This document shows positions 1-51,582 of a stretch of DNA of 64,000 nt, in pieces (positions within the stretch are counted from its first letter, which is position 1; each line of letters opens with the position of its first letter). Under the pieces are notes generated by a model that saw only the letters and a list, made by a program, of their open reading frames with translations, was not told the origin of the DNA and searched no databases. Origin of the DNA: an uncultured beta proteobacterium. Its GTDB lineage: Bacteria; Pseudomonadota; Gammaproteobacteria; Burkholderiales; Burkholderiaceae. Location of the stretch: assembly GCA_903889595.1 (NCBI GenBank), contig CAISYI010000089.1:1-64000 (forward strand), read 5' to 3'. The translations under genes were made by a program, and so were the position numbers.

Positions 1-141
1 AGCGAGGACATCGCTTGTTAGCCTGTGGAGAGTAGGGGCAGTCAGACCACTCTGTGAAGCAGGAACCCGCCGAAGTGACTCAAGCTCTAGCAGCCTGAGC
101 GCAGTAGGAATCCCCGTCCTTTAGGGCGGGGAGGATGTCAA
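1..141 (+). mobile_element. Right end of an IS200/IS605-type element, including the likely omegaRNA (reRNA) 3' scaffold
   Basis: gaatCCCCGTCCtttaGGGCGGGGaggatgtcaa: 8-bp hairpin (one G-U pair) overlapping the tnpB stop and ending in TCAA, the usual arrangement at IS605-family right ends. Confidence 0.7.
2..124 (+). CDS. tnpB: C-terminal fragment of IS200/IS605-family TnpB/OrfB (5' part lies outside the window)
   Basis: Frame 2 is open from the window edge to TAG at 122-124 and reads ...LCEAGTRRSDSSSSSLSAVGIPVL*, a C-terminus typical of TnpB/OrfB proteins; overlaps the right-end hairpin. Not in the supplied ORF track because it is truncated. Confidence 0.7.
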   Translation, partial: ARTSLVSLWRVGAVRPLCEAGTRRSDSSSSSLSAVGIPVL

Positions 142-169
142 TTGTTTTGAATAAAATCTAAAGACTGAA

Positions 170-1108
170 CTACTTTAGTTCAATTTTTTGAAATGCACTC
201 GCAAATGATTGGCCTAGAGTCGCTCCAAACCTTTTAGCTAAGCGTTCAGCAACATTTTCAGTTTGCGTGTAATCAACTACATCAGAATATTTAATGACAT
301 CTCTAGCGACCGATTCAACGGTTCCAAAATCATCGGCTAAACCTAGCTCAACAGCTTTCGAACCATTCCAAACCATGCCACTGAACATATCAGGCGTCTC
401 TTTTAAACGCGTACCACGACCATCTTTGACTGCCTTGATAAATTGCTGATGGATTTCATCCAACATAGCCTGAATAGATTGAGTTGTTTTTGGATTTTGT
501 TTCATAAAGGGGTCTAGCATTGCTTTATTTTCTCCGGCAGTTTGAACTCTACGCTCAACTCCAACCTTATCCATTAGGCCGGTAAATCCAAAACCTGCCA
601 TGATGACACCAATAGAACCAACCAAACTTGCTTTGTCCACATAAATCTTTTCACCAGCTGCAGCAATGTAGTATCCACCAGAGGCACAAATATCTTCAAT
701 GACTACGTATATGTGTTTCTCGGGATTAGCTTTACGTAAGCGCATCATCTCGTCATAAATCATTCCAGATTGCACAGGTGAACCGCCAGGACTATTAATA
801 CGTAAAATCACACCACCAACTTCTGGACTTTCAAACGCATTTTGCAAGGCAGCCATGATATCCGAGGCATTGGCTGAAGTTCCACCAGAAATTTCACCTT
901 CTAATTTAATCAAAGCAGTATGCTGGCTTAAAACAGAAGCACTCTTTTTAAAAGGCGCAAAAAAAGAATATATGAGAGCAACTATAACAATCAGTCCTAG
1001 TAAGCGCCAAAAAGTCCTCCACCGACGATTACTTTGACGCTCTTTTAAATTTTCTTTCAATAAATTCTCTAGGGCTGTTTTTTCCCAATTATCATCATTT
1101 GTAGTCAT
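170..1108 (-). CDS. sppA: Signal peptide peptidase SppA, S49 family
   Basis: N-terminal TM segment; INSPGGSPVQSG and DICASGGYYIAAA serine peptidase motifs. Confidence 0.93.
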   Translation of the reverse strand: MTTNDDNWEKTALENLLKENLKERQSNRRWRTFWRLLGLIVIVALIYSFFAPFKKSASVLSQHTALIKLEGEISGGTSANASDIMAALQNAFESPEVGGVILRINSPGGSPVQSGMIYDEMMRLRKANPEKHIYVVIEDICASGGYYIAAAGEKIYVDKASLVGSIGVIMAGFGFTGLMDKVGVERRVQTAGENKAMLDPFMKQNPKTTQSIQAMLDEIHQQFIKAVKDGRGTRLKETPDMFSGMVWNGSKAVELGLADDFGTVESVARDVIKYSDVVDYTQTENVAERLAKRFGATLGQSFASAFQKIELK

Positions 1109-51222: not shown

Positions 51223-51582
51223 GGGACCGACTTGGTTTCGACGTGGATTGCGAAGCACGGAGGGCATACCGAGGACCCGTTATCTCGTAAATCAATGGGA
51301 ATTGTAATAACTGCTAACGACGAACGTTACGCACTAGCAGCCTAAGGGCTGTGGCCCTCGTACCAGTTTGCCGATAGGTTGGGGTAGAAATACCATTCGA
51401 GGTCATTTATATCGGATCGTGCCATTAAAGGTCACTGTTAATGGAGCTAGAACTAAAGGGAATCGTTCCTGTAAAGCGTGTTAATCCGCGTTGCATGAAT
51501 TAAATCAAATGATATAACTAAGTATGTAGAACTCTTTGTAGAGGATTTGCGGACGCGGGTTCGATTCCCGCCGGTTCCACCA
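51223..51582 (+). ncRNA. ssrA: Transfer-messenger RNA (tmRNA)
   Basis: 5' GGGACCGACTTGGTTTCGACG, tag ORF gctAACGACGAACGTTACGCACTAGCAGCCTAA ((A)NDERYALAA), 3' GGGTTCGATTCCCGCCGGTTCCACCA; ends pair. Confidence 0.97.

Follow-up and report, generated by a model that had tools for sequence, protein, structure and literature searches.

The window analysed here, a stretch of 64,000 nucleotides, corresponds to G000:C89:1-64000, in other words to a stretch of contig C89 that starts at the contig's own first base; the contig belongs to a fragmented draft genome of the genus Polynucleobacter (G000; 2.65 Mb, 291 contigs, 86% complete). At this edge lies the right end (RE) of a mobile element, which includes the 3' end of a tnpB gene and a probable omegaRNA scaffold, followed after the interval 142–169 by the host gene sppA (Table 1). 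Since the contig edge falls inside the element, the 5' side of the latter has been cut off by the assembly, just as the initial annotation had supposed; its placement of a guide just downstream of the sppA stop likewise agrees with the position of the interval between the element and sppA.

Table 1. Features at the start of the window, with the basis of each assignment
Feature	Position	Strand	Basis
Right end (RE) of an apparently tnpB-only, IS200/IS605-type element	1..141	+	same terminal base in copies of the genome and the genus; absent from the orthologous locus of G042/G161
tnpB 3' end, frame 3, ...RGHRLLACGE then TAG	3..35	+	longer copies end at a TGA equivalent to 96-98
Core omegaRNA scaffold with covarying helices (probable)	22..141	+	RNAalifold, subthreshold Rfam matches
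GAAT, right guide (G_R), IS608-type	108..111	+	sequence; IS608 G_R in PMC5934647
Subterminal right-end hairpin CCCCGTCC-TTTA-GGGCGGGG	112..131	+	sequence; covariation
TCAA, right cleavage site (C_R), final element bases	138..141	+	IS608 C_R in PMC5934647; conserved in relatives
Predicted 16-nt guide TTGTTTTGAATAAAAT, host flank	142..157	+	position predicted from ISDra2 reRNA (PMC8612924); homologous to the uninterrupted G042/G161 flank
sppA (S49 signal peptide peptidase), host gene; 3' end borders the insertion, outside the element	170..1108	-	matched in 175/186 genus genomes

Bases 1–141 are repeated at three further places in the same genome (C262, C87 and C183) with 98–100% identity, and all four copies read ...GGGGAGGATGTCAA before they diverge. 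As the base that follows GTCAA is T in the four copies of this genome and C, A or G in those of other genomes, base 142 has to be assigned to the flank and the right end to base 141. The initial annotation had let the element finish with GTCAA at this very base and had described a right-end hairpin (CCCCGTCC/GGGCGGGG); the divergence of the three sister copies directly after GTCAA confirms the former, and the latter is found at 112–119/124–131. Similar DNA is present in 1,644 plasmid records, many of which carry a TnpB or transposase annotation, and the similarity is thus beyond chance. Window 1–141 is a multi-copy element end and an ordinary member of the IS200/IS605 family, of a well-described kind and with no new mechanism.

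In two relatives of about 85% identity (G042 and G161), the 3' end of sppA directly adjoins a terminator-like hairpin and then a methyltransferase gene, and the element is absent. Homology of these loci to the window starts at 143–145, and the absence of 1–141 from this site in both genomes defines the right end, with the junction at 141|142. In G000, the corresponding methyltransferase gene sits at the end of contig C4, beside a left end of the element, which argues that C4, the element and the window contig represent one insertion. As read from these two contigs, the insertion site is GCTTGATTTAT|TTGTTTTGAATAAAATC, between the methyltransferase gene and sppA.

The left flank ends in TTTAT in all four left ends of the genome (C4, C96, C99 and C284). 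For the copy that spans C99 and C87, G042 keeps the uninterrupted site ...AACATTTAT|TGTGCAGATAAATAATCTTTTAACCAGTAATGGGAAATAA, in which TTTAT|TGTGCAGATAAATAATC... matches the predicted guide flank of this copy in 40/40 bases. This intact empty site, together with the left flanks, gives TTTAT as the target-adjacent motif (TAM) and indicates that the target was not duplicated; C96 and C262 join in the same way, with none of the target bases duplicated. The initial annotation had proposed that the guide comes from the flank and corresponds to the unoccupied site; at the level of sequence, this is borne out for this sister copy. The flank of the window copy also has its homologue in G042 and G161, but in both the sequence has diverged near the junction, where TTTAT is no longer found. 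A genus-wide search with the TAM and guide of the window, allowing up to two mismatches, returned 31 AT-rich matches at scattered places, where a backwards control gave 20; none of the 31 was perfect and none was identified as the orthologous site. C183 and C284 had also been considered as the two sides of one insertion, which found no support, as the flank of C284 differs from the C183 locus in G021 and G042.

The remainder of the element can be followed on the sister contigs. Upstream of the right end, C262 encodes a TnpB C-terminus of 114 aa with a TNB zinc-finger domain (9.8e-23) and the RuvC-III Asp, while C4, C96, C99 and C284 break off shortly after a left end that begins CCAAT(A/C)GTGCGGAAAACCTCGCC, with the start of tnpB following within about 115 bases and, in the C96 fragment, an HTH_OrfB_IS605 domain (5.1e-14). 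The tnpB gene that the initial annotation expected upstream is thus present in sister copies. All these contigs break inside the element, which is what a collapsed repeat would be expected to produce; TnpB residues ~88–292 are on no contig of this genome, and two of the three RuvC acids fall in the unassembled part. The fragments score just below the cut-off of the guided_TnpB model (NF040570), and full-length relatives score far above it. In a collection scan seeded with an alignment of the TnpB C-terminus, the closest near-complete relative was that of a betaproteobacterial MAG (L115), which shares the TTTAT left end and whose TnpB contains each of the three RuvC acids (GIDVG, IEDL, HADLVG); all three are also found in a relative from the genus (G136, P0003). 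Between the element ends, read on separate contigs from left end to tnpB and from tnpB to right end, no tnpA was seen, nor was a tnpA with matching ends identified in the binned assembly. The two IS200-type tnpA genes found in this genome, on C82 and C177, each adjoin another tnpB gene; C125 gives a third, weaker Y1 match. With subterminal hairpins at both the left and the right end, as in members of IS200/IS605, the element would be a tnpB-only, IS1341-like representative, with its left end, tnpB and right end read on separate contigs.

One point of the initial annotation has to be revised. It took frame 2 for the TnpB C-terminus; this 40-aa reading has no Pfam match and was rejected, as TnpB is encoded in frame 3 (RGHRLLACGE*) and stops at the TAG at 33–35. 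The VGIPVL ending of frame 2 is an in-frame tail in other TnpB subfamilies of the genus (L102, L103 and L107), which probably misled the earlier assignment.

For the RNA, an alignment of right ends from 52 relatives was folded with RNAalifold. The consensus has 36 pairs, 20 of them with compensatory changes on both sides, and its energy is -77.5 compared with -48.4 +/- 4.2 for column-shuffled alignments. Standard pairs fill 97.4% of the cells, compared with 90.1% after shuffling (maximum 91.0% in 500), although the comparisons with shuffled alignments do not amount to a strict probability, because the relatives are not independent of one another and part of the region also encodes the TnpB tail. 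The scaffold structure is thus conserved and covarying in the relatives, with a further conserved stem-loop at 1–21, and this RNA structure extends over both the 3' end of tnpB and the right end, as it does in an omegaRNA (reRNA). HgcC and sot0042 RNAs are probably linked to TnpB. Rfam gave no match above the gathering threshold in 1–141; at a relaxed threshold, HgcC (56–154), sot0042 (82–132) and RAGATH-18 (22–65) were matched with 25.5, 19.6 and 29.2 bits, below their gathering thresholds of 50, 88 and 44.9, respectively. RAGATH-18 RNAs are reported to be guides of IS607 TnpBs (PMC11061315), and the three subthreshold matches point the same way, towards an omegaRNA. The sole above-threshold Rfam match in the window is a tmRNA gene at 51223–51582 (RF00023, 210.6 bits).

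The ends of the element follow a known code. In IS608, the right guide G_R GAAT pairs with the right cleavage site C_R TCAA, and the left guide G_L AAAG with C_L TTAC (PMC5934647). In a left-end search in which the middle two guide bases were fixed as AA, the target was left unconstrained and targets were read by eye at the element edge, G_L, the tetranucleotide 5' of the left hairpin, fits the target in 18/18 left ends from G000 and relatives, one row (L113) having been discarded as it was not at an element edge. The pairs are AAAA with TTTAT, AAAG with TTAC, CAAA with TTGAT, and CAAG with TTGAC. This covariation of guide and target supports TTTAT as the insertion motif and a mobilisation of the TnpA type, presumably in trans. 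The four target motifs occur among closely related TnpB elements (L115, L092, L134, L147, L176, L130, L158, L172, L182 and others). It was further observed that the last 41 bases of the right end (101–141) are common to different TnpB subfamilies of the genus (G124, G144, G146; L102, L103, L104 and L107). Since they are 98–100% identical between these subfamilies, the latter may be moved by one shared TnpA.

Among known systems, ISDra2 of Deinococcus radiodurans (IS200/IS605) is similar in its TnpB with RuvC and TNB (phmmer of a genus relative to 8h1j, 3.9e-47), and in an RNA, predicted on the side of the window, that derives from the tnpB 3' end and the right end, takes its guide from the 3' flank and overlaps a dispensable protein tail. 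It differs in its TAM, TTGAT instead of TTTAT, and in that the window element apparently lacks tnpA and would have a predicted activity. IS608 of Helicobacter pylori (IS200/IS605) shares the identical G_R and C_R and the same left guide/target code, but uses TTAC with AAAG where the window element has TTTAT with AAAA and is apparently tnpB only. The tnpB elements of Janthinobacterium, Massilia, Tatumella and Legionella have a TnpB C-terminal region of ~65–84% identity and the same right-end architecture; some of them, however, carry a divergent tnpA beside tnpB (annotated in Tatumella, L047), whereas in the window element the left end is followed by tnpB within ~115 bases. RAGATH-18 RNAs, also TnpB guide RNAs, show a weak structural resemblance below the family threshold, and the window ends are of the IS200/IS605 (Y1) and not of the IS607 type.

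From our point of view, the window thus begins, with a probability of about 0.95, with the right end of an IS200/IS605 element of the tnpB-only, IS1341-like kind, which entered the chromosome 3' of TTTAT and encodes an omegaRNA with a flank-derived guide. The comparisons above show its ends, TAM, empty sites, conserved RNA structure and protein family. In ISDra2, the 3' part of tnpB together with the right end gives rise to an RNA that uses ~16 nt of the flank as guide, and TnpB cuts the re-joined donor site after excision, whereupon repair restores the element (PMC8612924). The sequence features that such a mechanism requires appear to be present here. By analogy with ISDra2 and IS608, from which we infer RNA processing, cleavage, the role in retention and mobilisation in trans, the element would have inserted 3' of TTTAT between the methyltransferase gene and sppA, and a TnpA acting in trans would move it as single-stranded DNA, recognising the end hairpins, with G_L AAAA pairing with TTTAT and G_R GAAT with TCAA. 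Processing of the tnpB transcript would release the omegaRNA from its 3' part (scaffold ~22–141, guide 142–157). Once excision has re-joined the donor site to TTTAT|TTGTTTTGAATAAAAT, TnpB loaded with this RNA would cut it, and the element could be restored by repair from the sister chromosome.

Two other explanations have to be weighed. The hairpin at 112–131 could be no more than an intrinsic sppA terminator or a repeat of the host, with no mobile element involved, and a G+C-rich stem close to a gene end as well as a terminator-like hairpin near the uninterrupted locus of G042 would fit such a reading. The native terminator-like hairpin, however, lies on C4, across the insertion from sppA, and 1–141 is missing from the orthologous locus of G042/G161 and is attached to tnpB elsewhere, which makes the terminator reading hardly credible, and it was rejected.

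A more serious doubt is whether the window copy is a dead remnant with a decayed tnpB, from which a functional omegaRNA is not made. The TAG at 33–35 shortens TnpB by 20 residues, since C262 has TTG there and continues to the later TGA; decayed copies with deleted tnpB interiors occur in G042, and beyond the contig edge the window copy is known in part only, from the C4 side. Against this, the TAG form recurs in separate insertions, namely in the window copy (C89), in C87, in one of the two copies of G161 (C172, L097) and in G042 (L092), and the TTG form is present in C262 and in the other G161 copy (C48, L096). A TAG/TTG polymorphism common to several species and found in several insertions points to an old polymorphism of a spreading element, of which both the full-tail form and the form lacking the final 20 residues seem to have spread. 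In ISDra2, cleavage does not require the disordered TnpB tail that starts at residue 376 (PMC10097598), so that, by analogy, the TAG need not inactivate the window TnpB. As moreover the right end is 99–100% identical to its sister copies and the omegaRNA helices are intact, we consider a dead remnant unlikely, albeit not negligibly so.

The case illustrates how the edge of a contig can reveal a TnpB guide and its TAM, which relatives without the insertion then serve to verify. The TTTAT of the window family and the TTGAT, TTAC and TTGAC of close relatives further form a compact natural series for the joint change of the TnpA target choice and the TnpB TAM.

Two mini-elements of 185 bases were also observed, one in G000 (C99:51640-51824, reverse strand, L005) and one in G134 (C40:28802-28986, L099). 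The two share 85% identity and are the sole full-length matches in 186 genus genomes; in each, the left-end hairpin is fused straight to a complete omegaRNA-like right end, without tnpB and with TTGAT flanks. One might speculate, as an improbable scenario, that these are mobile guide-only genes borrowing TnpB in trans, such that one TnpB would protect numerous insertions at different places, among them copies whose own TnpB is shortened like that of the window. A shorter trace in the same genome (C281:6996-7028, L006) consists of the right-end hairpin and GATGTCAA, with no omegaRNA or tnpB sequence upstream.
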